Shown: piece by piece, positions 1 to 26,546 of the stretch | Numbering within the stretch: position 1 is the first letter of the stretch | Layout of the letters: each line of letters starts with the position of its first letter | Assembly: GCA_902516625.1 (NCBI GenBank) | Contig: CABXYU010000001.1 | Location: forward strand, 31,001 to 95,000 | Reading direction: 5' to 3' | Origin: an uncultured Pelagibacteraceae bacterium | GTDB lineage: Bacteria > Pseudomonadota > Alphaproteobacteria > Pelagibacterales > Pelagibacteraceae | DNA length: 64,000 bases | The notes under the pieces: generated by a model | Seen by the model: only the letters and a program-made list of their open reading frames with translations | The model's database searches: none | Told to the model about the DNA's origin: nothing | Position numbers and translations under genes: made by a program

Positions 1-1045
1 CTAAACCAGGTGATATAGCTTTTATAAATCGTAGATCAGAAGTTCCACCTGTAGTAGATAATCTCGGTTTTATTTTGGTAATTCTTTTTATGATATTTTG
101 TATCATAAAAGTTGTTTTATTTGGTTTAGTTAAAAAAGCTTCACCAGAAACCCGATAATCAATTATGAATTTTGACTTATTTTTTTTAGTTATCTTCTTG
201 AAAATTTTATTAAGTCTTTTTTTAATTGAATTTGAAGAATGTTTGTTATTAAATCTTATATTAAAAGTGGCTTCTGCCGATCCTGGAATAATATTATCTG
301 CATCATTTTCTATATTTATTTTAGTAACTTCCAAATTAGTCGGCTGGAAGTGTTTATTTCCTTGATCAAATTTTACATCTTTAATTTCTTTAAGAATTTG
401 AACCAATGTTGTTGAAGGATTATTTCCTCTATGTTGATATGCGACGTGACACTGTTCACCTATAATTTTAATTTTACCTGTTATACTTCCTCGTCGTCCG
501 ATTTTTATCATTTCACCTAATCTATTTGGATTTGTTGGTTCGCCCACTAAACAAAAATTTATTTTTTCTTTTTTTCTAAGTAAATACTCCACTACTTTTT
601 TTGTACCATTAATTGCATCGCCTTCTTCATCACCTGTAATTAAAAAACTTAGTGATCCATTAAATTTTTTATTTTTTGTTAGAAAAGTGCTCACAGCAGA
701 CACAAAAGCTGCAACAGAACTTTTCATATCATTTGCACCTCTTCCAATTAAGTGGCCATTTTTAATAGATGGTTTAAATGGATTTACTGTCCAGTCTTTT
801 ATATTACCTGGTGGAACAACATCTAGGTGACCTGCATAACAAAAATTAGGTCCTTTTGTTCCCAACCTTGCGTATAAATTCTTAACTGGTTTGAAACCTT
901 TCTCTTTAAATTCTAGTATTTTTGTTTTGAAACCAAGTTTTTTGAGTTTTTTTTCTAAAAACTTCATCACCCCAACATCTACTGGAGTAATAGATGGGAA
1001 ACTTATTAGCTCTTTAGCTAATTGCAATTCATTAATTTTTTGCAT
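1..1045 (-). CDS. dapE: Succinyl-diaminopimelate desuccinylase (3' end outside window)
   Basis: Reverse-strand translation from ATG at 1045: MQKINELQLAKELISFPSITPVDVG...YAGHLDVVPPG...GRGANDMKSS...TGDEEGDAINGT; M20 peptidase motifs; open to window edge. Confidence 0.9.
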   Translation of the reverse strand, partial: MQKINELQLAKELISFPSITPVDVGVMKFLEKKLKKLGFKTKILEFKEKGFKPVKNLYARLGTKGPNFCYAGHLDVVPPGNIKDWTVNPFKPSIKNGHLIGRGANDMKSSVAAFVSAVSTFLTKNKKFNGSLSFLITGDEEGDAINGTKKVVEYLLRKKEKINFCLVGEPTNPNRLGEMIKIGRRGSITGKIKIIGEQCHVAYQHRGNNPSTTLVQILKEIKDVKFDQGNKHFQPTNLEVTKINIENDADNIIPGSAEATFNIRFNNKHSSNSIKKRLNKIFKKITKKNKSKFIIDYRVSGEAFLTKPNKTTFMIQNIIKRITKIKPRLSTTGGTSDLRFIKAISPGL

Positions 1046-1047
1046 GT

Positions 1048-1875
1048 TTAATCTCTTAAAAGATCATTAATTGATGTTTTTGATCTAGTTTTTTCGTCTA
1101 CTTGCTTGATTATTACTGCGCAACTTAGTGATGGAGCAGATGGATTTTTTTTATCAGGAAGAGAACCTGGTACAACAACTGAGTATGGAGGAATTTTTCC
1201 ATACGTGATCTCACCGGTTGATCTATTTACTATTTTTGTAGATTGTGTAATCAGCATTCCCATGCTTAACACAGAACCTTCTCCAACTATAACTCCTTCT
1301 ACTACTTCAGACATTGCTCCTAAAAATACATTATCTTCTATTATTGTAGGTAATGCCTGAGCAGGTTCCAGCACTCCCCCAACTCCTGATCCCGCAGATA
1401 TATGGCAATTCTCTCCAATCTGACAACAACTACCAGCACGACTGAATGTATCCATCATGGTTTTAGCCCCAATGTAAGAACCAATGTTTACATAACATGG
1501 CATAAGAACAGCATCTTTTCCTACGAACGATCCTTTTCTAACAGGCGAGTTTGGAACCATCCTAAAACCTGCTCTCTCATGATCTTCTTTTGTCCAGCCA
1601 GCCGTTTTTCCTTTTAACAAATGAGCTTTGTCATACCAACTAGAATATGGTCCATTTAAATTTTCCATTGGATAAATTCTAAAACTCAGCATAATTGCTT
1701 TCTTTAGGTGTTGATGAGTTACCCATTCACCATTTATTTTTTCAGCAACTCTTGATTTACCACTATCCAAGTCACTTATTACTTGATTAATTGCATCCTT
1801 TAAAGACTGATCCGAATTAGGATTCACTTTATCTTTATTTCCCCAAGCATCATTTATAATTTTTTCTATAGACAT
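1048..1875 (-). CDS. dapD: 2,3,4,5-tetrahydropyridine-2,6-dicarboxylate N-succinyltransferase
   Basis: Hexapeptide-repeat protein; RMVPNSPVRKGSFVGKDAVLMPCYVNIGSYIG; adjacent to dapE. Confidence 0.95.
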   Translation of the reverse strand: MSIEKIINDAWGNKDKVNPNSDQSLKDAINQVISDLDSGKSRVAEKINGEWVTHQHLKKAIMLSFRIYPMENLNGPYSSWYDKAHLLKGKTAGWTKEDHERAGFRMVPNSPVRKGSFVGKDAVLMPCYVNIGSYIGAKTMMDTFSRAGSCCQIGENCHISAGSGVGGVLEPAQALPTIIEDNVFLGAMSEVVEGVIVGEGSVLSMGMLITQSTKIVNRSTGEITYGKIPPYSVVVPGSLPDKKNPSAPSLSCAVIIKQVDEKTRSKTSINDLLRD

Positions 1876-1878
1876 AAT

Positions 1879-2568
1879 TTATTGACTTTTTAATAACCTT
1901 ATTTCCTTAAGAAATAAAGACAGATTTTCAATTTTGTGTGAAATAAAATCTTTATCAGCATCCATCTTTCCAAAATGTTCATCATTAATTAACCAAACAG
2001 TTGTACAGCCTCGTTTATGTCCAATGCTCAGATTCTTTGCAATATCTTCTATGTAGATTGTTTCTTTTGGATTAATACCGAATTTTTTAACCATAAGATC
2101 AAAAGTTTTTGCCTCAGGTTTGGGCACATAACCAGCGTCTTCTATATCAAATACTTTATCTCGTCCGAATAAGTCATATATTCCTAAGTGGGTTAAAATA
2201 TTTTCTGCATGTTCAGCACTTCCATTGGTAAAAATAAATTTCTCCATATCCAATTGTTCTAGCTCTTTTCTCATAACCATATCTGCTTTCATAAATGAAA
2301 GATCGATTGTATGAACATATTTTAAAAATTCTTGTGGTGGTATGTTGTGGTGGATCATAAGACCATTTAAACTTGTGTTATATTTGTAAAAATAATTAGT
2401 TTGAAGTTCTTTCGCAGAATCAATATCTATTTCAAGTCTCTCTGAAATAAACTTAGTCATTCTTTGTGATACTTGACCAAAAACTTTTTCAAGAGAATAG
2501 TTATTATGTTTGCCATAACACACTCCGTCAAGATCTAATAAAAGATATTTTTTTTCTCTTAAATTCAT
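1879..2568 (-). CDS. HAD-superfamily hydrolase (pyrimidine 5'-nucleotidase-like)
   Basis: LLLDLDGVCYG, FTNGSAEHA, YIEDIAKNL HAD motifs. Confidence 0.85.
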   Translation of the reverse strand: MNLREKKYLLLDLDGVCYGKHNNYSLEKVFGQVSQRMTKFISERLEIDIDSAKELQTNYFYKYNTSLNGLMIHHNIPPQEFLKYVHTIDLSFMKADMVMRKELEQLDMEKFIFTNGSAEHAENILTHLGIYDLFGRDKVFDIEDAGYVPKPEAKTFDLMVKKFGINPKETIYIEDIAKNLSIGHKRGCTTVWLINDEHFGKMDADKDFISHKIENLSLFLKEIRLLKSQ

Positions 2569-3431
2569 GATCTGATTAGTGTCCCTGCACCTTTATCTGA
2601 GAGTAATTCATATAAAATTGAGTGTTTTAAACGTCCATCTATAATACAAACTCCTTTAACGCCATTATTTGCAACATCTAAACAATTATTTATTTTTGGA
2701 ATCATACCACCACTAATTGTTTCATTTTTTATTAGCTCACTAATTTTATTAGTATTGATTTCAGATATTAATTTTTTATCATTATCTAATACACCCTCAA
2801 CATCACTCATTATAATTAATCTTCTAGCATTTAGTTTTTTTGCAATAGCACCAGCGGCTGTATCAGCATTGATATTGAAAACTTGATTATCTTTATCTAG
2901 CCCTAAAGGAGCTATTACAGGAACTTTTTTTTCTTTTACTATCTGTTCAATGATTGATTGGTTAATCTCTTGAGGGGTGCCAACAAAGCCAAGTTTATGA
3001 TTTTCCTGTTCAACTAAAAGAATATTATTTTTTTTATTTGTTACACTTTGACTATCGCAACCATTTTTTTTTAAAGCATTTGTTATTTCTGTATTAAAGT
3101 CACTTAAAACACTCTCAACAATCTTTATTGATTTTTCATCTGTAACTCTTAATCCATTGATAAAATTACTTTTAATTCTAGATTCATTTAATTTATTTGA
3201 AATTCTTTTACCTCCACCATGAATTATGACAGGTATAAAACCTAGTTTGTTCAGAATTGAAATGTCATTAATAAAATTATCAAATAAATTCTGATCAACT
3301 AAAACACTACCACCACATTTAATAACGATGTATTCATCATTGTATTTATCTAAATAGTTTTTTACTTCTTCAAAAGAAGGACCGTTTATTGGTAAAATTT
3401 GTTGAATTTCTTCGTCTGTAATCTTTGACAT
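2565..3431 (-). CDS. argB: Acetylglutamate kinase
   Basis: VIKCGGSVL, VIIHGGGKRIS, NINADTAAGAIA, GGMIPKI motifs. Confidence 0.95.
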   Translation of the reverse strand: MSKITDEEIQQILPINGPSFEEVKNYLDKYNDEYIVIKCGGSVLVDQNLFDNFINDISILNKLGFIPVIIHGGGKRISNKLNESRIKSNFINGLRVTDEKSIKIVESVLSDFNTEITNALKKNGCDSQSVTNKKNNILLVEQENHKLGFVGTPQEINQSIIEQIVKEKKVPVIAPLGLDKDNQVFNINADTAAGAIAKKLNARRLIIMSDVEGVLDNDKKLISEINTNKISELIKNETISGGMIPKINNCLDVANNGVKGVCIIDGRLKHSILYELLSDKGAGTLIRS

Positions 3432-5116
3432 TAAGTTACAGTTTTAACTGTTGTTCGTCTCATTATGAATACTTGTTGAAGCATAGTGAGGCAATTATTT
3501 ACAAACCAATAGAGAACCAATCCGCTTGGAAAAGGTGCAAGTATTACTGTTAAGAAAAGAGGAAAGAATGCAAAAATCTTAGCCTGAATAGGATCTGTGG
3601 GAGCCGGATTTAATTTCTGTTGTGCCCACATACTAAGGCCCATTGCTATCGGGAGCGCCCCGATTACCAAAAAAGAAGGCACATCATATGGTAATAGACC
3701 AAACAAGTTAAACACAGAACTTGGATCACGTTCCGATAGGTCTTTTAAATATCCATAAAATGGCATTTGCCTCATTTCGATAGTTACAAATAAAACCTTA
3801 TACAGACTAAAAAATATAAAGACCTGCGGGACGATGGGAAGACAACCTGACATAGGATTAACACCCTCTTTCTTATATAAAGCCATCATTGACTGTTGTA
3901 ATTTCATTTTGTCATCTTTGTGAAGCTCTTTAAGTCTCACCATTTCAGGCTGCAAAGCTTTCATTTTAGCCATGCTTTTAAAAGAATAATTTGCCAGTGG
4001 AAATACTGCTAATCTAATACAAACAGTAACAGCAATAATAGCTAAGCCATAATTACCAAACATTTTAAAGAAATAATCTAATGCATACCACATGGGTTTT
4101 GTTAAAAAATACAAAAATCCCCAATCAATTACTAAATCAAATTTTTCGATTTTTAAGTTCTCAGCATAACCATCTATTGCCCGAACTCTTTTTGCACCCA
4201 CAATTGCCTGGAATTTTTCTTCAATGAAACTATTTTGATTTAATTCTTGTGGATCTGTGGAAATAAAATTTATTCTAAATTTATTTTTATAATCAAATGT
4301 GGTTTTAAATTCTTTATTTTTTGGAGGAATAATAGAGGTAATAAAATACTTATCACTAACCCCGAGCCATCCTTTTTGAGCAGTTTTTGAAAATTTTTTA
4401 TCCTGTATATCGTCATAATCTTCCTCAATGAGTTCATCATCTAGCGTAGCAATTGGACCTTCATGCAATATAAAAAAATTCAACAAGTCCTCTGGAATTT
4501 TATTTCTTATTATTTGGCCATAAGAAAAAAAGTCATATTTTTTGTCTGTAGAATTGATTACCTTTTGTTTTATTGTGAATAAAAAATTATCATCTAATGA
4601 AATTTCCTTTTCAAAAGTAATACCTTGATTATTTGACCATGATAATTTTATAGGAGATTGGTCCGTTAACTTATTATTTCCAACAATTGACCAAATTGAA
4701 TTTGAGTCTGGAATATCAATATTTTTATCTGTTGTAACAAATCCACTTTCAATAAAATAACCATCTTCAACATTTCTTGGACTTAACAAAGTAATCTTTT
4801 CCTCATTTTCAAGACTGACTTTATAATCTTTAAATGTTAAATCATCTATTGTTGCTCCTTTTAGTGATATTGTTCCAATGATACTCTCATTTTCAAACTG
4901 AACTCTTTTACTTTCTTTTAATGCATCATCTCTGGAGATTTGAACTAAAGTCTCCTTTTCATCTAAAGTTGGCGTATCAGTATTTTGTTCAATTTTATTT
5001 TTTTCTGATAAATTTTGTTTTGTTGTTGATTGTTCGGGAGGAACAAAAAACAATGAGTATAAGACTAAAATTGCTGTTGATAACGCTAGGGCAGCGATGA
5101 GGTTCTTGCTTTCCAA
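3431..5116 (-). CDS. yidC: Membrane protein insertase YidC
   Basis: N-terminal TM, periplasmic domain, Oxa1-like C-terminus (FPLANYSFKSMAKMKALQPEM); next to yidD/rnpA/rpmH. Confidence 0.95.
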   Translation of the reverse strand: MESKNLIAALALSTAILVLYSLFFVPPEQSTTKQNLSEKNKIEQNTDTPTLDEKETLVQISRDDALKESKRVQFENESIIGTISLKGATIDDLTFKDYKVSLENEEKITLLSPRNVEDGYFIESGFVTTDKNIDIPDSNSIWSIVGNNKLTDQSPIKLSWSNNQGITFEKEISLDDNFLFTIKQKVINSTDKKYDFFSYGQIIRNKIPEDLLNFFILHEGPIATLDDELIEEDYDDIQDKKFSKTAQKGWLGVSDKYFITSIIPPKNKEFKTTFDYKNKFRINFISTDPQELNQNSFIEEKFQAIVGAKRVRAIDGYAENLKIEKFDLVIDWGFLYFLTKPMWYALDYFFKMFGNYGLAIIAVTVCIRLAVFPLANYSFKSMAKMKALQPEMVRLKELHKDDKMKLQQSMMALYKKEGVNPMSGCLPIVPQVFIFFSLYKVLFVTIEMRQMPFYGYLKDLSERDPSSVFNLFGLLPYDVPSFLVIGALPIAMGLSMWAQQKLNPAPTDPIQAKIFAFFPLFLTVILAPFPSGLVLYWFVNNCLTMLQQVFIMRRTTVKTVT

Positions 5117-11693: not shown

Positions 11694-11767
11694 GGCCGTT
11701 TAGTTCAATAGCAGAACACGGGTTTGTGGAACCTGGGACGGTGGGGCAGAACCACCAACGGCTGCCA
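11694..11767 (+). tRNA. tRNA-His (GTG), no encoded G-1, G1:U72, G73, non-canonical D/T loops
   Basis: GGCCGTT/AACGGCT acceptor then G-CCA; D-arm GTTC-AATAGCA-GAAC; anticodon arm CGGGT-TTGTGGA-ACCTG; T-arm GGTGG-GGCAGAA-CCACC. Confidence 0.9.
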
Positions 11768-15093: not shown

Positions 15094-15645
15094 ATGAAAA
15101 AAAAAGGTAAAGAGATCAGTTCGGACAAAGATAATACTATTGATACAAGCCCAATTAAAACGGACGTATATAAGTATCCAAGAGGAAATAGATATAATAT
15201 TGTATATGCCAAAACACCAAACAATAATCAGCATGTCAGAAGGTCAGACGAAGAACTTCAAAAAATAATTGATAGTAAGCCAAAAAATTGGACTAAAAAG
15301 GATTTTTTAGGAGAGGGTAAACTAAATGATCAAAAACTCTTAACTAGGAAAGAGACAGATAGAAAGACTCTAAAATTCTATCAAACTGGAAAAAGAATAA
15401 ATATGAAAAATATTTTTGATAATTCCACTGAAGAAAGCATTCGTGAATTTAAAAAAGGTGAAATAGATTTTGAAACACTTAAAAATAGATCTTCAACGAT
15501 TAAATGGCGCAGCAATATGTCTAATCAAGAACGTAAATTGTATGATAAGGAAATTTATAAAAAGATAAAATCAGATCCTGAACAGCTAGAGGCCAAAAGA
15601 GAAAGACAAAGAGATTTTTTCGAAAAATATTTGAAAAAAAATTAA
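15094..15645 (+). CDS. Hypothetical Lys-rich protein (183 aa)
   Basis: ORF; no family recognised. Confidence 0.6.
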   Translation: MKKKGKEISSDKDNTIDTSPIKTDVYKYPRGNRYNIVYAKTPNNNQHVRRSDEELQKIIDSKPKNWTKKDFLGEGKLNDQKLLTRKETDRKTLKFYQTGKRINMKNIFDNSTEESIREFKKGEIDFETLKNRSSTIKWRSNMSNQERKLYDKEIYKKIKSDPEQLEAKRERQRDFFEKYLKKN

Positions 15646-15677
15646 TTTTTACCCCAACGTCTCAACAGACGCTAGAT

Positions 15678-15772
15678 GTAGAGCGGTGCCCCCAGTTTTT
15701 GGCTCGGTAGCTCAGGAGACGATGAGGCATAGGGCAGTACACTCAAGTTTTTGGCTCGGTAGCTCAGGAGAC
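15678..15772. repeat. Two-copy 52-bp-period tandem direct repeat
   Basis: agtttttggctcggtagctcaggagac exact at 15694-15720 and 15746-15772; flanking sequence also partly similar. Confidence 0.9.
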
Positions 15773-15818
15773 ACAATATCTTTGTTAGCACAAATGTTAG
15801 ATTTATTGTAAATAAACA

Positions 15819-16529
15819 ATGAATATGAAATGGAACAAAAAATTTAATTATACTTCATTAAATCGTATTCCAGTAAATGGATCTCGACACTACGCCGTTG
15901 GACAACATCGTTTACCTTCAGTTTCTACCATATTGAGCAAAACTAGAGCGCCCGAAGATAAAGCTGCACTTGCTGCATGGATTGCTCGAGTTGGGGAGAA
16001 AGAAAGTGAGCGTATTAAAAATGCAGCTAGTGCAAATGGCACAAAAATGCACTCACTAATTGAAAGGTACTTGAAGAATAGAGAAAATTTAGAATTATTA
16101 GAAACTGAAGAAGAAACTGGCCTTGCAAAACAAATGGCAGATAAAATTATTTCTGAGGGTATTCAAGGAAAAGTAAATGAAATTCATGGAATAGAATGCC
16201 CTATTTATTATGATAGTCCTAGGGGCTGGGCTGGGACAGCTGATCTTGTGGCCACATATGAATCCAAACTTTCAATTTGTGATTTTAAGCAAAAAAATTC
16301 TATTATGAAGGAAACTTACTCTAGTTATCACGAATATATGACCCAAATTGCCGGGTATAGCCTAGCGCACGATAAATTATTTGGTTCAACTATAACTCAA
16401 GGAGTTATTCTATTAGCAACTACAGATCTAGTTTTTCAAATTTTTAGAATTAATCACGAAAAACTTAAAGAATACCAGCAGAAGTTTTTAGATAGAGTTG
16501 AACAATATTATTCTTTAATTAATAAATAA
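15819..16529 (+). CDS. Phage-type PD-(D/E)XK exonuclease (MGME1/pelagiphage exonuclease-like)
   Basis: LPSVSTILSKTRAPEDKAALAAWIARVG, GWAGTADLVATYESKLSICDFKQKN, YMTQIAGYSLAHDKLFG. Confidence 0.75.
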   Translation: MNMKWNKKFNYTSLNRIPVNGSRHYAVGQHRLPSVSTILSKTRAPEDKAALAAWIARVGEKESERIKNAASANGTKMHSLIERYLKNRENLELLETEEETGLAKQMADKIISEGIQGKVNEIHGIECPIYYDSPRGWAGTADLVATYESKLSICDFKQKNSIMKETYSSYHEYMTQIAGYSLAHDKLFGSTITQGVILLATTDLVFQIFRINHEKLKEYQQKFLDRVEQYYSLINK

Positions 16530-16716
16530 CTCATTATTTATCCTACAAAATATTGGATTAAAATTATTTAATTTAATATTGACTTCTTAATTTCACTATG
16601 TTAATGTTCAAATAACTTAATAAAAAGTTAACCTTTTTATGTATACCGAATTATTAAGTCAGTTCTTAAACAAAAATAATTCTCACTACACATAAACAAG
16701 GTTAACCAAAAAATGG

Positions 16717-16950
16717 GTGATTATGTTTATGGAGAAAAAAAAAGATAAGATACGAATAAGACGTTATTCTTGTAACTATTGTAATTGTACAGGCTTTTTT
16801 AATAGAACGCAGATAATTTTCCAAATTTGGAACTGGGGATATCAGTTCATTAATAAGGATATTTGTAATTACTGCGAAGGCCGAGGTTATATAGTTTTTA
16901 AACGTAAGTACGAAGATATTAATAATTATCAAAGTTTTTTGGAGCATTAA
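16717..16950 (+). CDS. Small protein with paired CxxC motifs (DnaJ zinc-finger-like)
   Basis: RRYSCNYCNCTGFF...DICNYCEGRGYIVF. Confidence 0.5.
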   Translation: MIMFMEKKKDKIRIRRYSCNYCNCTGFFNRTQIIFQIWNWGYQFINKDICNYCEGRGYIVFKRKYEDINNYQSFLEH

Positions 16951-16952
16951 CC

Positions 16953-17033
16953 ATGAAAATTCCAAATATTCCTTATTATATGGGCCTTTTTACTATTCTC
17001 TGTGTTTTATGCTTTTTAAGGGAGATTATATGA
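16953..17033 (+). CDS. 26-aa hydrophobic small ORF
   Basis: MKIPNIPYYMGLFTILCVLCFLREII; ATGA overlap with a following 50-aa ORF. Confidence 0.25.
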   Translation: MKIPNIPYYMGLFTILCVLCFLREII

Positions 17034-17085
17034 TTTTATTCAAAATCCTAATTTCTATTTTTCTACCGGCAAAAAATTTAATGTT

Positions 17086-17145
17086 GAATCTTGGCCTGGG
17101 GCAACCTTCCTTTCTTTCTTTCTGTTATGCCCCAGACCTAGATTC
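17086..17145. promoter_or_regulatory. Long GC-rich inverted repeat/hairpin upstream of accessory operon
   Basis: gaatcttggcctggggca / tgccccagacctagattc: 18-nt arms, 16/18 paired, 24-nt pyrimidine-rich loop. Confidence 0.7.
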
Positions 17146-17174
17146 AAATGTAAAAAAAATGAGAGGTAATTTTA

Positions 17175-17447
17175 ATGACTGATAAAACAAAATACTCAAA
17201 TATAAGCGTTTCAAAAGAGACATACTCTTCACTGCAGAAATTAAGCAAAGAAATATTACCAAATGCATCTTTATCTATTTCAAAAACTGTCACTTATTTA
17301 GTGGATTGTAAAATTAAAGAATCAAACGAGTATTTAAGATCTCAAGGATATCAAACAGAAGAGATAGGTTTTACCCCACCTAAAAAAATAATTGATTGGG
17401 TAATAAATAACACAAACAACAAAGGAGAAAAAAATGGAAAAAAATAA
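17175..17447 (+). CDS. Small putative DNA-binding protein (ribbon-helix-helix-like)
   Basis: YSNISVSKETYSSLQKLSKEILPNASLSISKTVTYLV pattern; overlaps next ORF start. Confidence 0.45.
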   Translation: MTDKTKYSNISVSKETYSSLQKLSKEILPNASLSISKTVTYLVDCKIKESNEYLRSQGYQTEEIGFTPPKKIIDWVINNTNNKGEKNGKK

Positions 17448-19011
17448 AAAAATAGAAATATACAAAAACTTAATATTAGATGTGCCTGGAGTAAATACCG
17501 CACAATTTGACAAGTCTATTGAAAGTTCAGTAACTACATCATGGGGTGTAAATTGGGATGCTGATTTTATAGCACGAGATATTTTACAAAATTTTAGGGA
17601 CTCAAATTTATCAGAAATTGAGAAAGTGGTTGTAAATACAAAGAACGACAAAATACTGGTTGAAGGCAATAATTGTTTTGATTTAAGAAAACTATTTTTT
17701 GTAGGTTCTAACAAAGCAGGTGATGACACAACCGTTGGTGAATATGGTGAAGGATTTAAAGCAGCTGTGGTTTCAATGCTGAAACGAGGTATTCAAGCAC
17801 CAGTATCAGTTTCTGGAGATACAGCGATAGTGATAGATGTGGGAGATGAAGTTGTCGAAGATTTAAGGCCACTCGTTTATCATTTTTTTAAGGTTAATAA
17901 ACAAAACAAAACATCATTTCTTATTCACACTTATGACAAAGAACTTAAAGCAGCGTTTGATTTTGGAATGTCACATTTTTGGTTTGAAAAAAATCCATTA
18001 GTTGGCGAAGAGCTTCATTCTTATAATGATATATCATGCTACAAAAGTAAAAACCCAAAAGAGGGGTATTTATTTTATAGGGGAGTGATGAGAGGAAAAA
18101 TTTCTCATATTCCAGTAGTAATCAATATTCCAAAAAAATATGCTCAAATAGAAAATAAGATTAAATCAGATAGAGATCGTAATTCATTTGATAATAAGCT
18201 AGTGAATAGTTTTTTAAGTATTTGGGCAAGATCTGGTTTCCATTATCATGGTATGACTGATAATCCAGCAATTAAATTTGTATTAGAATGTTCAAAAAAG
18301 ATATGGGACAAAGGTCATCCGCTACTTGCTGCTCTAGCGAATAACGCTTGGAACATTAAAGATGACAAATCTTTAATAAAATTATTTGGAAATAAATATT
18401 TTGCTGATTCTGCTCATTATCATTCAAGAAGTATTACTTGGTCAGAATGGTACGATAAAAAAACTCAAACTTATATTATAAAAAAAGATAGAGAACTTGA
18501 GAAAAAAGGTAAAATAAAACTGCCGAGTTATTTTGTAAGGTTTGGTGTTACTTCTTCACTCGAAATGTTTATTAAAAATAGAGAAGCTTTAGAAAAAAGA
18601 ATTAGAACTAAAAAAACCGCAGCCTTAAGTCCCAAACAAAAAAAGGCAGTCAATTATGCTATGGAATGTATTTCAAAAGTAGCTCCTAATTTCAGTTCCC
18701 TTTATAATAATTTTAAAGAGGACCAGGGTATTTACGAGCTTGATTTTAAAACAATCGAGTCGAAGGATCTACTTGGAGAATTAAAGGACTCAAGAGATTA
18801 TGATGGAAAAACTATTTATCTAAATAAAGATTTATTTAAAAGTAATTTTGGTAAATTCTTTGCAATAATGACACATGAAATGGGCCATGTATTTGGAAAA
18901 GATGGTGAGAGAGAGTTTTCAGATGTCCTGACCCACATCATTGCTCAAGCTGTAGATAAAAATTCTGTGATCTCAAAATATTCTAAAAATTGGAGTAGGT
19001 ATAAAATATGA
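17434..19011 (+). CDS. GHKL (HATPase_c) ATPase fused to C-terminal HExxH zinc-metallopeptidase domain
   Basis: N-box-like ARDILQNFRDSN; G2-box-like VGEYGEGFKAAVVSML; C-terminal MTHEMGHVFGKDGEREFSD. Confidence 0.65.
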   Translation: MEKNKKIEIYKNLILDVPGVNTAQFDKSIESSVTTSWGVNWDADFIARDILQNFRDSNLSEIEKVVVNTKNDKILVEGNNCFDLRKLFFVGSNKAGDDTTVGEYGEGFKAAVVSMLKRGIQAPVSVSGDTAIVIDVGDEVVEDLRPLVYHFFKVNKQNKTSFLIHTYDKELKAAFDFGMSHFWFEKNPLVGEELHSYNDISCYKSKNPKEGYLFYRGVMRGKISHIPVVINIPKKYAQIENKIKSDRDRNSFDNKLVNSFLSIWARSGFHYHGMTDNPAIKFVLECSKKIWDKGHPLLAALANNAWNIKDDKSLIKLFGNKYFADSAHYHSRSITWSEWYDKKTQTYIIKKDRELEKKGKIKLPSYFVRFGVTSSLEMFIKNREALEKRIRTKKTAALSPKQKKAVNYAMECISKVAPNFSSLYNNFKEDQGIYELDFKTIESKDLLGELKDSRDYDGKTIYLNKDLFKSNFGKFFAIMTHEMGHVFGKDGEREFSDVLTHIIAQAVDKNSVISKYSKNWSRYKI

Positions 19012-19958
19012 GTTTAAATAGTAATTCAAATTTCCAATTTGTTGTCTCTGAGCCCATGAGAAAGAACAATTTATCAGTTTTCTTTTTGAATTCTAAGGTA
19101 AAAAAAGTAGATAATTATTTGTGTTTTTCTGAAGCTATAAATAAAGACTTAATATTAGTCAATGAAGTTAATGATAGAGGGTCAGTTAGGTGGTTAAAGT
19201 TATCTAACAAATCAAATCAAAAAATTTTAGTTTTAGAATCAGAACTAATAACTGGGAATGCTTTAAAGCAGGATAGAGTTGTTGATAGAACAACTCTGGT
19301 TCCTGAAAATACAACTATAATGTTACAAGTAAGTTGTTGTGAAAAAAATAGATGGAGTCCAGCCGTTGCAAACAACATTTCTGTTTCAGATACACTTTTT
19401 TTTTCAAAAGGGCGTTTAGATAATTCTCTCGATATTTATGAAAAGTCTAAAACTGATCAATTTAAAATTTGGGATAATATCTCTAAAAGATTAAATGATT
19501 TTAAAATTAAATCCTTTACAGGATCTACTGAAGAAATATATCAAAAAAAAAAAAAGGATATTGAAGATTTATTATTGTCGTTCAAACCAAAATTTAATAG
19601 TTTAGGAGTAGCTATTGCAATTGGTAATCGGATAATCTCAATAGATATATTTGGTGATTCAAATATTTTTAACATTTATTTCCCAAAAATCTTGAGGTCT
19701 GTAATAATTGATAGTTACACAAAAAAAACTTATCAAAATTTTATTTATAAAGAAAATGTGTATAAACTTCTTAGACAATTTGAAAAATCACAAAAAAAAT
19801 TACATAAGTCACCAGGAGGATGTTTGGGAGAAGAGATAAAATTTAATAATAATCAAGTAGTTGGCTCTTGTTTGCAGTATAATGATAAGATGATTCATTT
19901 TTCAGGTTTTTTAAAAGATAGTCCTGATATACCTCAATACAAAAGTGAGGTAGCTTAA
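19008..19958 (+). CDS. ARPP-1 (DUF6569)-like protein
   Basis: VLESELITGNALKQDRVVDRTTLVPENTTIMLQVSCCEKNRW matches remembered ARPP-1 pattern; 4-nt overlap with upstream ORF. Confidence 0.7.
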   Translation: MSLNSNSNFQFVVSEPMRKNNLSVFFLNSKVKKVDNYLCFSEAINKDLILVNEVNDRGSVRWLKLSNKSNQKILVLESELITGNALKQDRVVDRTTLVPENTTIMLQVSCCEKNRWSPAVANNISVSDTLFFSKGRLDNSLDIYEKSKTDQFKIWDNISKRLNDFKIKSFTGSTEEIYQKKKKDIEDLLLSFKPKFNSLGVAIAIGNRIISIDIFGDSNIFNIYFPKILRSVIIDSYTKKTYQNFIYKENVYKLLRQFEKSQKKLHKSPGGCLGEEIKFNNNQVVGSCLQYNDKMIHFSGFLKDSPDIPQYKSEVA

Positions 19959-19961
19959 AAA

Positions 19962-20990
19962 ATGAATGACTATATAATAATCATACTTTTAATAATCTTA
20001 ATTATTATAGTTATTATTAAAAATAAAAAAAATAATAATCAAGAATCTTATGATCCACTAAAACATGAAGGTTATAATAAAGATATTAAGGATGATATTA
20101 AGGGTGATATTTCTACCAAAATTGAAAATTTAAGAACAGCAATTACAAATAGTGTTAGTACAGTGAGTACAAATGTAGGTGTAAATAAAGGAATTATTGA
20201 GTCTAAATCAGGAGAAATATTAGAAGCACATCGAAGGTTAGTAGAAAGTATATCTGGTAGTAAAAAATCAGGTATAGCTGGAGAACTTTTGTTAGAAAAT
20301 TTTTTTAGATCTTCTGGATTAGTAGAAAATACACAATGGGTTAAAAATCAATCTTATGAGAAAGATGGAACAACTTTATCTGTAGAATTTGCAATAAAAC
20401 ATCCAACTGGATTAGTATTACCTGTAGATGCCCATTGGACTAAAACTTTATATGAGCAACTATCTAAACTTAGAGAAGAGCCAAAAAATGATGAAAGAGA
20501 TAGAAGAATTGATGAGGTCTATAAAGAAATAATCAAAAGCTATGGCAACAAAGCTAAAGAAGTTAGTAAAAAATATATTGATAGTCCGATTAGCACAGAT
20601 TTTGCTTGTGTTTATGTACCAAGTGAAAGTCTTTATTTAGAACTTAATACTCACATAACAACAGACAAAGAATTATGGATATCAGAAATACAAAAAAAAT
20701 ATAAAATTAATTTTATGGGGCCTTCAACTTTCTCAGCTTATTGTAGTGCAATTTTATTAGGTTTTAATTCTATTGCAGTCGATCAAAAAGCAAAAACATT
20801 TTTAAAACATGTGGACGCTTTGAATCTTTTGATCAAAAATCATTTTGAAAGTGCAGAAACTCATGAAAATAACATGAAAAGAGCTTTTAAAAGTGCTTCA
20901 GATATAGTTTCGACATCTGAAAAAATTAAGAATCAAATGGAAAAGGCAGAAGAGTCAATCAAAGAGATAGAGGATAAGAATAATGGATAA
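19962..20990 (+). CDS. RmuC-family protein, membrane-anchored, non-canonical active-site motif
   Basis: N-terminal TM + coiled coil; SGIAGELLLENFFRSSGL; DFACVYVPSESLYLEL; GPSTFSAYCSAI. Confidence 0.75.
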   Translation: MNDYIIIILLIILIIIVIIKNKKNNNQESYDPLKHEGYNKDIKDDIKGDISTKIENLRTAITNSVSTVSTNVGVNKGIIESKSGEILEAHRRLVESISGSKKSGIAGELLLENFFRSSGLVENTQWVKNQSYEKDGTTLSVEFAIKHPTGLVLPVDAHWTKTLYEQLSKLREEPKNDERDRRIDEVYKEIIKSYGNKAKEVSKKYIDSPISTDFACVYVPSESLYLELNTHITTDKELWISEIQKKYKINFMGPSTFSAYCSAILLGFNSIAVDQKAKTFLKHVDALNLLIKNHFESAETHENNMKRAFKSASDIVSTSEKIKNQMEKAEESIKEIEDKNNG

Positions 20991-21225
20991 AAAAACAAAC
21001 TTCCCAGATCTTGAAAGACTACCTCCACATAATCACTTTAAACATTTTTTAAATTGGTTAATAAACAAACCTAAGGTGTTTTTTAAGGATTATATTATAA
21101 AAAATTTTCTAGATAAAAATTTAGAATTAGAGATTTTAAAATTAAACTTAGAATTGAAGGAATATGAATTAACACTTTTAAAGAAAGAAATGCAAGAGAT
21201 AAGAAAATATTCTAATTTTTTGTAA
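20983..21225 (+). CDS. Small coiled-coil protein
   Basis: 80-aa ORF overlapping upstream gene by 8 nt; Leu/Lys heptad-like C-terminus. Confidence 0.5.
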   Translation: MDKKTNFPDLERLPPHNHFKHFLNWLINKPKVFFKDYIIKNFLDKNLELEILKLNLELKEYELTLLKKEMQEIRKYSNFL

Positions 21226-21250
21226 AAATAGATACAAAAACTCAAAAAAC

Positions 21251-22681
21251 ATGAAACAAATTATTGTAAAAGATTATGAGACGTCAGATGGTAGGGTAAA
21301 TTTTGGCCAAATTATACAGGCAGGAATTTTAATTACCGATGAGAATTTAAAAATTAAACAAAAACACGAATTGAGATGTAGACTAAAACCCAATGTTATT
21401 CCATCTATTGGTGCAAGTTTAGTGCACCGCTCAACAGTCGACCAGCTTAAGAATTCTAATATGTCCCATTATCAAATGGCAATGGAACATTACAAAATTA
21501 TTAAAGATGCCACAAAACATAACCCAAGTTTTATCACTGGCTTTAATAATATAGCTTTTGATTTGGAGTTTACACGTAGAATGTATTTTAAAAACTTAAT
21601 ACCAGATATTTACCAAACAAATACGAATGGCAATAGTCACCTAGATATTTTAAATGTTGCCAGAGCATCAAAATTTTCTAATAACGATGCTTTTAAAACA
21701 GTTCTTTCAGATAAAGGACGACCCTCATTTAAACTTGAAGATCTTTGCAAAGCGAACTCTATTGATAATGGTACTTCACATGATGCTATAACAGATTGTC
21801 TTAATACAATTTCTTTAGCTGACATTATTTTTAAAAAAACACCTGATATTTGGAATGCTGCTTTATTGACAACTACTAAGAAGGAAGTGGAAAATTTTAT
21901 TTTAAAAAATAAAGTTTACACATCATTAGAATATTTTTATGGACGATCAGTACCTTTTGCATGTCATCATATTTTATTTCATGAACAATACCAGTGGAGT
22001 ATAAATTGGGATCTCAAAGTTGACCCAACAAATTATTTAGAGATGGATAGATACAGATTATCAAAGGCTTTAGACTCATCTCCTAAATTTATAAGAACGG
22101 TCCGGCAAAATAAATCACCCGTTTTATTAAAAGCAGACTATGCACTAAATACAGATAATTATTCGAAACTGGGAAAAGATGAAATTAATAGAAGAGTTGA
22201 AATTTTAGATAATAATCCAAAATTTATTGAATTAATTGGTTCAATACTTTCTGATAAAGCTAAAGAAAAAATGTCTATGGATCAAACAGAACTTCTTTTT
22301 GAAGAAACAATATATGCAGCTGGTTTTGCTAATGCTAAAGACAAAGCATTAATGAATAAGTTTCATGAGGTGGATTGGGGAGAAAAAGTTAAGTTGATTG
22401 ATAAATTCTCTGAGGAACGTTTTCAATATTTTGCTGAATGTTTAATATATGAAGAAAGCCCAGAATCACTACCTAAATCAATTTATAATAAAATTCACAG
22501 AAGTTTTGCACAACGTCTTCTGTCTACTAATAAAGAGAAGTGGGAAACAACAGCAAGTTTTTTTAACGAGGTAGATAATTTACGTGAATCTAAATACAAA
22601 GATAATCCAGAGATGCTTGAGGTAATTGAAGATTATAATAAGTACGTAATGGAGATTCAATCTAAATTTGAGAGCGCTTAA
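21251..22681 (+). CDS. Exonuclease I (SbcB)-like DEDDh exonuclease
   Basis: VKDYETSDGRVNFGQIIQAGILI (DxE), FNNIAFDLEFTRR, HDAITDCLNT. Confidence 0.85.
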   Translation: MKQIIVKDYETSDGRVNFGQIIQAGILITDENLKIKQKHELRCRLKPNVIPSIGASLVHRSTVDQLKNSNMSHYQMAMEHYKIIKDATKHNPSFITGFNNIAFDLEFTRRMYFKNLIPDIYQTNTNGNSHLDILNVARASKFSNNDAFKTVLSDKGRPSFKLEDLCKANSIDNGTSHDAITDCLNTISLADIIFKKTPDIWNAALLTTTKKEVENFILKNKVYTSLEYFYGRSVPFACHHILFHEQYQWSINWDLKVDPTNYLEMDRYRLSKALDSSPKFIRTVRQNKSPVLLKADYALNTDNYSKLGKDEINRRVEILDNNPKFIELIGSILSDKAKEKMSMDQTELLFEETIYAAGFANAKDKALMNKFHEVDWGEKVKLIDKFSEERFQYFAECLIYEESPESLPKSIYNKIHRSFAQRLLSTNKEKWETTASFFNEVDNLRESKYKDNPEMLEVIEDYNKYVMEIQSKFESA

Positions 22682-22696
22682 CATTATTAAACTTTT

Positions 22697-25600
22697 ATGA
22701 AGAAGAATTTTTATTCACCTACTATGCTTGTGAATTATATTAATTACAAGCATTTTATTACAGATGAATTTAATGAAAAATTATTTAATTTAAAAAAGTC
22801 AGAAAAAACTATTGCAGAAAATTTAAGAATAAAAAAGGGGTTAGCTCACGAGAAGGAATATTTTAACGAATTAAAAAAAAAATATAAAAAAGTTAAAAAT
22901 ATTAAAATATTAAAAGATTTATCAAAAGAAGAAAAAATCAAAGAGACAATTAATGCATTAAAAAATGGGTATGAATTAATTTATGGTGGATGGCTGTCAT
23001 CAGGAAATTGGATTGGAGAATTGGATTTTTTAGAAATTAACAATCATGTTAAATCAGATTTAGGTAGCTGGAGTTATGAAGTTACAGATACAAAAAATAG
23101 TCCAAAAGTAAAAAAAGATCACATCTATCAAGTTAGTTTATATTCTTTTCTGCTTAAAGAGGTTCAAGGAATACTTCCAAAAAATTTTTATATTTTACTT
23201 AAAAATAAAAAAAAGGAAGTCATCAAACTAAAAGAGGTTTTTAGCACCTTTTCATTACATAAAAAATATTTTGAAAAATTTATAGAAAATGATTCAAATA
23301 AAAAAAAACTAGAAAAAATTAGCAGTATTTCTCTTCGTGATTTAAAAGAGTTTTATGAAAATGAATGGAAAGTACAAAAACATCTAAATTCATTGTTAGG
23401 AAGCAATAAGAATAGTGTTAAAAAATTAAATCAAGCTGGTATCCATAGTTTTGATAAATTAGCAAAACTTGATCCTAAAAAAGAGATTAAAGGATTAAAA
23501 GAAGAGGCAAAAATAAAATTGATTAATCAAGCTAAATTACAAATGGAAGCAGAAAAAGAAGGGGTTATAAAATTTAAATATATCGAAGAAAATTTTGCTT
23601 TAAATAAAGGATTTAATCTTTTACCAGAACCAACAGAGTCAGATCTTTTTTTTGATTTAGAAGGAGTCCAGGATTTTGTCTACCAAGGAAAATTAGAATA
23701 TTTATTTGGTATTTTTTATGAGGAAAAAGGAGAAAAAATATTTAAACCGTTCTGGGCACATAATAGAGAGGAAGAAAAAAAAAGCCTGATTAAATTTTTC
23801 GAATTTACAAAAAAACATTTTAAAAAATATCCAAAATCAAAAATTTATCATTACGCACCATATGAAATAAATGCATTAGAAAGATTAACATCGTTTCACA
23901 AAGTTCATGGAGTTGATTTCGATCACTATTTAAACCTTAATAAATTTGTGGATTTATTTAGGGTAGTTAAACAGGCAATTTATGTATCTCAAAAAAGTTA
24001 TTCAATTAAAGATATTGAAAAATATTACGATTTTAAAAGGACTGGAGATATTTTAAAGGGAGATATTTCAGAAGAGTTTTATATCCAATGGATGCAAAAT
24101 AATGATCAACAACTTTTGGATAAAATTGAAGAATATAATAAACAGGATTGTATATCTACCTTTAGACTTAGAAAGTGGCTTTTAAGAATTAAACCCAAAC
24201 AAACAAAATGGTTTGTACCAGAAAAAGACCAATTAGAGATCAGACCTTTTGAAGAAATATTATTGGAATACCAAGAAAAATTTAAAAATTTGAATATAAA
24301 ATCTAATAAAATTATTCAGTTGCTATCAGATATTATTGGTTTTTTTAATAGAGAACAAAAACCACAGTGGCGTCAGCATTTTGATAGAAAAGATCTTTCT
24401 AATAGTGAATTAATTGAAGATAGAGAATGTATAGCAAATATGAAACTTGCATCAGTTTTTCAGGATAAAAAGTCGTTTGTTTATAAATATATTTTTCCAG
24501 AGCAAGAGTATAAATTAAAGGAGGGAAGAAAATGCATAATTGCGAACAATACAGACCCTGAGAGATCAGATTATGCAGGTAAAATTCAAGAATTAGATCA
24601 AATCAATAGGTCATTATTATTAAGAAAAGGAATTTCTAAAGAAGAGAAAAAATTACCAAAGGTTTTGTCTATAGGGGAAGAGGTTATGGGCCATTCTTTT
24701 TTTGAGAATTTGAATAAAAATACTTATAGGTTTTGTGACAATGTTTTAAATAAAGAAGATGGTTATGAGGCTATTAAAAGTTTTATTAATAGAGATACTC
24801 CTAAAATAAAAGGAATTAAAAATGGAGAAAAAATAATAAAAAATGACAATTTTGATATAGAAATTCCAAAAATTATATCGAATTTACAAAATTCATATAT
24901 TTTTTTACAGGGTCCACCAGGTAGTGGTAAGACCTATCAAGCATCTAATGCAATCATTGAATTGCTTAAAAAGAATAAAAAAATTGCAGTAACAGCTAAC
25001 TCACATAAAGTAATTCATACCTTACTAGAAAAGGTAGAAAATTTAGCTAGTAAACAAAAATATATATTCAAAGGACTTAAAAAAGGTAACCCTGATGATC
25101 CAGATACATTTTACGATGGCAAATTTATTAAAACTGATAGAAATGAGAAACACTATATAGATGGGTTAAAACACAATAAAATTTTGCTTTATGCTGGAAC
25201 AAAATATCACCTATCACAGTGGTATTACCAAAATGAATTAGATTATCTTTTTGTAGATGAGGCATCTCAAATTTCTGTCGCAGATTTAGTCGCTTTAGGA
25301 GGTATTGCAAAAAATATTATCTTGATCGGGGACCAAATGCAATTAGGTCAACCTACTCAAGGTTCACACCCGGGTGAATCAGGTTGTTCAGTCCTAGATT
25401 ATTTATTAGAAGGAAAAGACACAATTGCTAATAATAGAGGTATATTTTTAAATAAAACTTATCGGCTTCACCCACAAATAAATTCATTCATATCAGAAAA
25501 TTTTTATGAAGATAGATTATTGGCTAATCAAGAAAATATTAACAGAAAAATAGAATATAAAAAAAATAGTATTATAAAGTCAGAAGGAATTCATACAATC

Positions 25601-26071
25601 TCAATGAATCATGAGGATAGATCACAACAAAGTATTGAAGAGTTTGAAATAATAAAAAAAATTATTGATCAATTGATCGGTTGTAAATTTACTGATTTTG
25701 ATAAATCAGTGAGAAAAATTAATGTAGATGATATTTTAATTGTTAGTCCTTACAATGTTCAAGTAAACTTCTTAAAAGAAAGATTAATCAAAGGTATTCG
25801 CTGTGGAACAATAGACAAATTTCAAGGAATGGAAGCGCCAATTACAATTATTAGCATGACTTCATCGTCAGTGGAAGATTTACCGAGAAATAAAAAATTT
25901 TTTTTTAATAGAAATAGATTAAATGTTGCAATTTCAAGAGCTCAATGTTCATCAATAATTCTTCTCAATCCAAGCTTATTAGAGTCAGTACCTACAGATT
26001 ATGAGGAATTTAAATTAATCAATAATTTTCAAAAATTAATGCAATTTCAAATAAAAACTGATAATATCTAA
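22697..26071 (+). CDS. TM0106-type RecB-like nuclease + DEDD exonuclease-like domain + SF1 (UPF1/DNA2-like) helicase
   Basis: GELDFLEI..YEVTDTKNS..YQVSLYSF; LFFDLEGVQDF..YNKQDCISTFRLRKWL; LQGPPGSGKT, LFVDEASQIS, TYRLHPQIN, GTIDKFQGMEAPITII. Confidence 0.85.
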   Translation: MKKNFYSPTMLVNYINYKHFITDEFNEKLFNLKKSEKTIAENLRIKKGLAHEKEYFNELKKKYKKVKNIKILKDLSKEEKIKETINALKNGYELIYGGWLSSGNWIGELDFLEINNHVKSDLGSWSYEVTDTKNSPKVKKDHIYQVSLYSFLLKEVQGILPKNFYILLKNKKKEVIKLKEVFSTFSLHKKYFEKFIENDSNKKKLEKISSISLRDLKEFYENEWKVQKHLNSLLGSNKNSVKKLNQAGIHSFDKLAKLDPKKEIKGLKEEAKIKLINQAKLQMEAEKEGVIKFKYIEENFALNKGFNLLPEPTESDLFFDLEGVQDFVYQGKLEYLFGIFYEEKGEKIFKPFWAHNREEEKKSLIKFFEFTKKHFKKYPKSKIYHYAPYEINALERLTSFHKVHGVDFDHYLNLNKFVDLFRVVKQAIYVSQKSYSIKDIEKYYDFKRTGDILKGDISEEFYIQWMQNNDQQLLDKIEEYNKQDCISTFRLRKWLLRIKPKQTKWFVPEKDQLEIRPFEEILLEYQEKFKNLNIKSNKIIQLLSDIIGFFNREQKPQWRQHFDRKDLSNSELIEDRECIANMKLASVFQDKKSFVYKYIFPEQEYKLKEGRKCIIANNTDPERSDYAGKIQELDQINRSLLLRKGISKEEKKLPKVLSIGEEVMGHSFFENLNKNTYRFCDNVLNKEDGYEAIKSFINRDTPKIKGIKNGEKIIKNDNFDIEIPKIISNLQNSYIFLQGPPGSGKTYQASNAIIELLKKNKKIAVTANSHKVIHTLLEKVENLASKQKYIFKGLKKGNPDDPDTFYDGKFIKTDRNEKHYIDGLKHNKILLYAGTKYHLSQWYYQNELDYLFVDEASQISVADLVALGGIAKNIILIGDQMQLGQPTQGSHPGESGCSVLDYLLEGKDTIANNRGIFLNKTYRLHPQINSFISENFYEDRLLANQENINRKIEYKKNSIIKSEGIHTISMNHEDRSQQSIEEFEIIKKIIDQLIGCKFTDFDKSVRKINVDDILIVSPYNVQVNFLKERLIKGIRCGTIDKFQGMEAPITIISMTSSSVEDLPRNKKFFFNRNRLNVAISRAQCSSIILLNPSLLESVPTDYEEFKLINNFQKLMQFQIKTDNI

Positions 26072-26075
26072 TCTT

Positions 26076-26546
26076 ATGGAAAGCAATCCATATAATTTAA
26101 AATTAGTTGAAAAAAAACCAGCAGATTATCTGAATGGAGAAGAATTTAAAAATTTTTTAGATAAAAATAAAATACCTGTAAAAAGAGTGGATAATTTACC
26201 ACGATTTGCAAATCAAAATAATATAGAAATGAAAAAACTTGTTAGAGAAGGATCGAGTGGTTCAGTTCCAACAATATATAAAATTCCAAATTCTACACAA
26301 ATAAAAAATATTTTAGAGAGTATGCAGCGTAATAACAATAGTGTTTTAGGAAAAGAGTTATTAAAAAAGAAAAAAGAAAAAATATTAGAAATATTTGATA
26401 AAGCTGAAGATAGAAAAGAAACGAGAACATCAATAGCGGACAAAGTTGCGAAAAGTTTGGGTGTAAATTGTAATAGAAAATTAGTAAGAGCAGTTTTAGA
26501 CTCTAAAAGATCATCCAAGCTGGAAAAGCTTAAAAAAATTTCTTAA
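26076..26546 (+). CDS. Hypothetical protein (156 aa)
   Basis: 5 nt after helicase ORF; C-terminal segment ETRTSIADKVAKSLGVNCNRKLVRAVLDSKR could be a small helical DNA-binding unit. Confidence 0.55.
   Translation: MESNPYNLKLVEKKPADYLNGEEFKNFLDKNKIPVKRVDNLPRFANQNNIEMKKLVREGSSGSVPTIYKIPNSTQIKNILESMQRNNNSVLGKELLKKKKEKILEIFDKAEDRKETRTSIADKVAKSLGVNCNRKLVRAVLDSKRSSKLEKLKKIS

Follow-up and report, generated by a model that had tools for sequence, protein, structure and literature searches.

Gene content between hisG and trxA

The window analysed here is a 64,000-nucleotide stretch of a SAR11 genome that is itself incomplete (completeness 65%). Between hisG and trxA it carries the features listed in Table 1. 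An earlier note, made from the letters alone, had described a packed run from 17175 to 26546, and all of its ORFs are present, lie on the + strand and overlap or stand at most 25 nt apart. The ORFs at 17175-17447 and 17434-19011 overlap by 14 nt, the one at 19008 overlaps the preceding GHKL ORF by 4 nt, RmuC starts 3 nt after ARPP-1 and is in turn overlapped by 8 nt by the ORF at 20983, and the gaps before 21251, 22697 and 26076 measure 25, 15 and 4 nt.

Table 1. Features of the hisG-trxA region (positions in the window)
Feature	Position	Strand	Evidence
183-aa basic protein, unknown function	15094..15645	+	ORF; cluster a183 in 7 loci
Two exact 27-nt direct repeats	15694-15720 and 15746-15772	+	resemble tRNA 5' end
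PD-(D/E)XK (RecB/Cas4-like) exonuclease (exo)	15819..16529	+	phrog_298 2e-43
77-aa CxxC zinc-motif protein (cxxc), recurrent partner	16717..16950	+	weak DnaJ_CXXCXGXG
90-aa protein, opens the packed run, possible small regulator	17175..17447	+	homologues in 8 loci
GHKL (Hsp90/MutL-type) ATPase and HExxH metallopeptidase fusion, signature gene of the module	17434..19011	+	AlphaFold2 and Foldseek, motifs
ARPP-1 protein	19008..19958	+	PF20208 2e-59
RmuC	19962..20990	+	PF02646 7e-32
80-aa helical/coiled-coil small protein	20983..21225	+	ORF; homologues in 4 loci
ExoI/SbcB-like DEDDh 3'-5' ssDNA exonuclease	21251..22681	+	PRK11779 7e-43; RTasSbcB 7e-66
TM0106-family RecB-like nuclease, DEDD nuclease and SF1B helicase	22697..26071	+	TIGR03491 3e-61
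156-aa conserved protein, unknown function	26076..26546	+	18/28 loci; homologue alignment

Profile searches agree with the domains that had been read by eye for ARPP-1, RmuC, the ExoI-like protein, the TM0106 nuclease/DEDD/SF1 helicase and the phage-type exonuclease. The small proteins fared less evenly. The 90-aa protein, which had been called RHH-like, finds no support in profile searches, and the CxxC protein does match the DnaJ zinc motif but with a score below the cut-off. For the 183-aa and 156-aa proteins, profile searches gave no family; homologues of the former are found at this position in a number of SAR11 loci, on the opposite strand in some of them, and the C-terminus of the latter is possibly nucleic-acid-binding.

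The repeat that had been seen upstream of the run is 27 nt long, in two exact copies. The pair occurs nowhere else in its genome, and the other loci that we fetched lack it. The repeats are probably incidental, and may be left over from a tRNA duplication or integration event. The supposed GC-rich hairpin did not hold up, as shuffled sequence folds equally well (z = 0.00); this value, together with the lack of an Rfam match, led us to reject an upstream structured RNA or retron-like element. Scans for promoters and terminators returned signals at the level of shuffled sequence. A second tRNA, scored by Rfam and missed by ARAGORN, is found at 11694-11764 of the window, just upstream of hisS.

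An expanded allele of a conserved nuclease locus

In 15 of 19 GHKL-negative genomes read downstream of hisG, chosen as relatively complete and not at random, we found RmuC, a PD-(D/E)XK exonuclease and ExoI, followed by trxA, all on the + strand within about 3.4 kb. The window holds the same three genes between hisG and trxA, in a changed order and with additions interposed. Since the trio holds this site elsewhere, the genes in the window are more than an insertion: they form an enlarged allele standing in for a conserved core nuclease locus. The earlier note was therefore half right in stating that core genes stop after hisG, since three of the genes that follow, exo, RmuC and ExoI, are homologous to the core genes found at this site in other SAR11. 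Its accessory cassette stands for GHKL, ARPP-1, TM0106, the 156-aa protein and the small partners, all of them variable, but not for RmuC, ExoI and the phage-type exonuclease, which make up a near-universal SAR11 locus.

RmuC and ExoI also overlap or abut in other SAR11 genera and in the second family, in either order, and in one genome (G001) about 50 kb separate the pair from hisG. Expanded loci that lack GHKL exist as well (L071, L072, L073), and the locus can do without GHKL, ARPP-1 and TM0106. A trio so nearly universal points to housekeeping repair no less than to defence.

The GHKL-HExxH protein and ARPP-1

For the 525-aa GHKL/HExxH protein, a Pfam search gives no family and a profile search against PDB sequences yielded a chance match only. 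Its assignment is nevertheless upheld by an AlphaFold2 model built from 21 sequences (pLDDT 84), the N-terminus of which gives Foldseek matches to N-terminal domains of Hsp90 (E 4e-3, probability 0.99) and to MutL. The N-box QN..D, the GEG motif, and the HExxH and DGxRxFSD motifs of the C-terminus are invariant across 26 homologues. The adenine-contacting G1 box (DxGxG) is degenerate, so that ATP binding by the GHKL domain is likely but not assured.

The gene is rare, being found in 8 of 298 Pelagibacterales genomes, a sample in which single-amplified genomes are incomplete. Among a 338-genome sample of the alphaproteobacteria, we detected no credible distant homologue of the GHKL-zincin, the search giving one match over 85 positions (4e-4). 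A phage or plasmid origin was considered and rejected: no relatives on viral contigs and no plasmid match were found, and the only phage match, to the GHKL part in two Vibrio phage records, is 26% identical over 99 residues.

ARPP-1 keeps the conserved Gln88 and Cys110. Its fold has no confident match in the PDB (model pLDDT 74, best E 0.09), and we infer that it acts on ribose or on DNA-end chemistry. It is present in three of the 298 SAR11 genomes, all three GHKL-positive, and wherever it occurs it stands directly downstream of GHKL.

RmuC

The RmuC profile (PF02646, 7e-32) spans residues 51-339 of the protein, which begins with a hydrophobic segment, as read from its sequence, a feature shared with the ShdA protein of the Shield system discussed below. 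The catalytic lysine of the PD-(D/E)XK centre is replaced by histidine (E..DxH instead of DxK), whereas DxK is kept in all 12 RmuC proteins that we examined from other alphaproteobacteria. As this loss affects both the core RmuC and that of the window, a nuclease role is doubtful, and the DxH form may serve in anchoring or in DNA binding instead of cleavage.

RmuC is single-copy in 27 of 27 genomes, GHKL-positive ones included, and the window copy is the only one found in its genome. In a phylogenetic tree it joins the clade of the core locus with a support of 100/100. Other GHKL loci hold a different RmuC subfamily, even L024, in which GHKL is 98% identical to that of the window. The replacement of lysine by histidine runs through the Pelagibacter core clade that we examined (L053, 872-1969, and other core-trio loci).

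Exonucleases and helicase

The PD-(D/E)XK exonuclease is homologous to the gene in the middle of the trio (43-52% identity to the core-trio proteins), and its D..DxK..Q motifs are invariant in 25 homologues. Pelagiphage exonucleases are homologous to it, the best phage match being Pelagibacter phage HTVC023P (38.8%). The ExoI-like protein combines an RNase_T domain with an ExoI C-terminal domain (2e-14), its catalytic residues D8, E10, D104, H177 and D182 are invariant, and its best PADLOC match is RTasSbcB. ExoI is present in 279 of 298 SAR11 genomes, nearly always as a single copy; between allele types it is divergent yet homologous, at 25-38% identity.

The TM0106 protein contains RNase_H_2 (8e-27) and AAA_12 (4e-27) domains, matches Dna2 structures and other SF1B (Upf1/Dna2-like) structures, and conserves the D..DTK, DEDD and Walker motifs. 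It is found in 5 of 8 GHKL-positive genomes and in 10 of 290 others (Fisher p 8e-6, uncorrected for relatedness). TM0106 genes located outside the locus (L075, L076, L077, L079) lie near likely DNA methyltransferase genes, judging from sequences inspected by eye. No AddA/RecB-type enzyme scored over the cut-off of TIGR02784 in 27 SAR11 genomes, each of which returned only a UvrD-type ORF of about 680-750 aa.

Composition and exchange of GHKL loci

Among 85,462 species genomes scanned, 27 GHKL loci were found, nearly all from Pelagibacteraceae, or 28 with the window. The co-occurrence that had been proposed as a check is borne out for RmuC and ExoI: GHKL is found in 28/28 loci, and both ExoI and RmuC in every locus uncut by a contig end (26/28 each). 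We define here the GHKL-zincin module as a GHKL-HExxH gene that shares its site with RmuC and ExoI, and the window carries such a module. Less constant members are the 156-aa protein (18 loci), a WGR protein (18), TM0106 (16), a 463-aa protein (16), an extra PD-(D/E)XK nuclease (11) and ARPP-1 (10). The idea of a single functional unit is favoured by the joint movement of the cassette genes between lineages described below, but has to accommodate a modular make-up in which ARPP-1, TM0106 and the 156-aa protein come and go.

Two layouts can be distinguished. Type A resembles the window, on a single strand and with ARPP-1, and in type B ExoI and the 463-aa protein are divergent from WGR-GHKL-RmuC. 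The 77-aa CxxC protein occurs in several type A loci, and a 67% identical homologue stands beside the module of G203. The WGR-domain protein found in 18 of the 28 modules (L033 and other type B loci) is a stand-alone protein of about 75 aa. One contig with a SAR11-type GHKL locus (L032) comes from a MAG labelled Bdellovibrionales and probably belongs to SAR11, having been misbinned.

Comparison of the window with locus L026 shows that the block was exchanged between divergent SAR11 lineages. The proteins are 98% (GHKL) and 97% (RmuC) identical, against 44% for accD and 50% for trpA. At third codon positions, identity reaches 93% for RmuC, 85% for ARPP-1 and 83% for GHKL, as compared with 51% for folC, 45% for accD and 44% for trpB among the comparison genes (range over folC, accD, trpA and trpB, 43-51%), so the cassette has moved recently. 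The transfer probably took place by homologous recombination at the flanks. In L043, the whole cassette has been turned round with respect to its flanks.

Defence genes lie near several of these loci. The neighbours of L027 are type I restriction-modification genes and those of L033 an Eco57I-type methylase and a helicase; Z1-domain systems stand beside the expanded loci L047 and L069; and L044 has a Mza-like system (359-4777; MzaC 1e-107, MzaB 2e-28) upstream of its type B module. L073 carries a methyl-directed AspBHI/Mrr nuclease. In L073 (64-9500) and L074 (181-9000), Hsp70 and LRR genes are found beside TM0106 in place of GHKL, and L074 has further genes, for an M48 metallopeptidase and for a PDZ/TerB protein. 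The Hsp70, M48, PDZ/TerB and LRR proteins that we tested from these two loci gave no match in PADLOC, and the Hsp70-LRR gene set is possibly a separate uncharacterised system. At a fixed hotspot, the proximity of defence genes could also be coincidental.

Comparison with named systems

As the earlier note had suspected, the locus corresponds to no named system, and PADLOC yields single-gene matches only. The nearest is Shield, composed of the RmuC-domain nuclease ShdA and the metallopeptidase-like ShdB, in which RmuC is a proven anti-phage nuclease and the partner lowers its level (PMC10270631). Both are built around one RmuC-domain membrane protein and include a partner of the metallopeptidase type; both come in variable subtypes and are found in defence islands (PMC10270631). 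They differ in several respects. ExoI, a helicase-nuclease, GHKL and ARPP are all missing from Shield, the M15-type fold of ShdB differs from the GHKL-HExxH protein, and the RmuC of the window lacks the catalytic lysine and thus the intact PD-(D/E)XK centre of the Shield nuclease. RmuC is accessory to Shield hosts in Pseudomonas and a single-copy core protein in SAR11. As for partners, ShdB, ShdC, ShdD or ShdE are encoded downstream in Shield, Shield I having none; 3' of the window RmuC lie the genes of the coiled-coil protein, of ExoI, of TM0106 and of the 156-aa protein.

The locus shares the RmuC and SbcB nuclease families with DRT systems (PADLOC RTasRmuC, RTasSbcB), but profile searches found no reverse transcriptase among all ORFs of the segment. 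The fusion of a RecB-like nuclease to an SF1 helicase in TM0106, with ExoI-type and exonuclease partners, recalls RecBCD, AddAB and Dna2; unlike RecBCD/AddAB, the TM0106 protein is of the SF1B (Upf1/Dna2-like) type, has an extra DEDD nuclease and comes without a Chi-recognition subunit. ARPP, with its conserved Cys and Gln, is predicted to be an enzyme of conflict systems (Iyer et al., 2022, PMC9503650). The part of that article considered here describes ADP-ribosylglycohydrolase, rhodanese-phosphatase, HIRAN or WYL partners, which the window lacks, and does not report a GHKL-RmuC-ExoI context (PMC9503650). Literature searches on RmuC with SbcB and reverse transcriptase, on SAR11 with RmuC, and on TM0106 returned nothing relevant beyond Shield.

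Possible functions of the locus

We give an even chance to the reading that the window carries an expanded, horizontally exchanged allele of the SAR11 DNA-end nuclease locus, with an anti-phage role and gating by the GHKL-metallopeptidase. The helicase-nuclease and the PD-(D/E)XK exonuclease would open and resect free DNA ends, from phage or from broken DNA, while ExoI would strip 3' single strands and membrane-anchored RmuC would position the DNA or a complex of these proteins. The GHKL-metallopeptidase may gate the nucleases through an ATP-driven conformational change and proteolysis, triggered by infection or by inhibition of the nucleases. That RmuC can serve in defence alongside a peptidase-like regulator has a precedent in Shield. 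Both halves of the original guess, an anti-phage system or a DNA-end-processing machine, fit such a role.

ExoI and RmuC have classical recombination roles, and the locus may simply replace AddAB/RecBCD in double-strand-break repair and recombination control, the expanded allele having no immune function. The near-universal trio, the lack of an AddA/RecB-type enzyme in the 27 genomes and the Dna2-like architecture of TM0106 are all consistent with this; we consider it rather unlikely for the window, where the allele is rare and patchy (8/298) and was recently transferred, restriction-modification genes often adjoin, and ARPP-1 is of a kind known from conflict systems.

Phages might also inhibit the core exonucleases, as lambda Gam does with RecBCD, and such pressure might drive swaps of whole alleles. 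The GHKL-zincin, or Hsp70 with M48, would then be a guard that senses nuclease inhibition and triggers a response. The divergence of homologous ExoI proteins and the two RmuC subfamilies at one site would be expected from it, and the replacement of GHKL by Hsp70 and LRR genes in L073 and L074, with M48 in L074, would be an analogous pairing of chaperone and metallopeptidase. Diversification of this kind is nonetheless improbable as the main explanation, given that GHKL is missing from most loci and that the guard is purely conjectural.

It is very unlikely that hisG-trxA is merely a recombination hotspot where unrelated genes piled up around the trio with no joint function, for although expanded loci vary in composition (including the Z1-type systems of L047 and L069) and a tRNA-like repeat lies upstream of the run, the GHKL-RmuC-ExoI association is strict, ARPP-1 always lies directly 3' of GHKL where present, the ORFs overlap, the genes were transferred together, and TM0106 is associated with GHKL (with relatedness uncorrected).

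Returning to the gated anti-phage allele, a broader form of it can be put forward tentatively: an undescribed class of SAR11 immune loci, in which a RmuC-ExoI core, present in one copy and mostly at a fixed site, is swapped as whole alleles and combined with interchangeable sensors made of a chaperone-like ATPase and a metallopeptidase. These would be either the Hsp90-like GHKL-zincin, alone or accompanied by ARPP-1, or Hsp70, M48 and LRR proteins, and the class might couple RecBCD/AddAB-like work to proteolysis-gated immunity.

SAR11 are among the most abundant bacteria of the ocean and are heavily infected by pelagiphages; to our knowledge, their defences are poorly known. The present data indicate that the hisG-trxA region is one fixed site where SAR11 strains differ in their DNA-end nuclease machinery. 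It makes two ideas testable, that a RmuC-ExoI locus serves both repair and immunity in a streamlined genome devoid of AddA/RecB-type enzymes, and that Hsp90-like ATPase-peptidases act as gates of nucleases. As a simple marker, the allele type at this site could also be compared with the phage susceptibility of isolates, among them HTCC9565 with its GHKL allele (L035).
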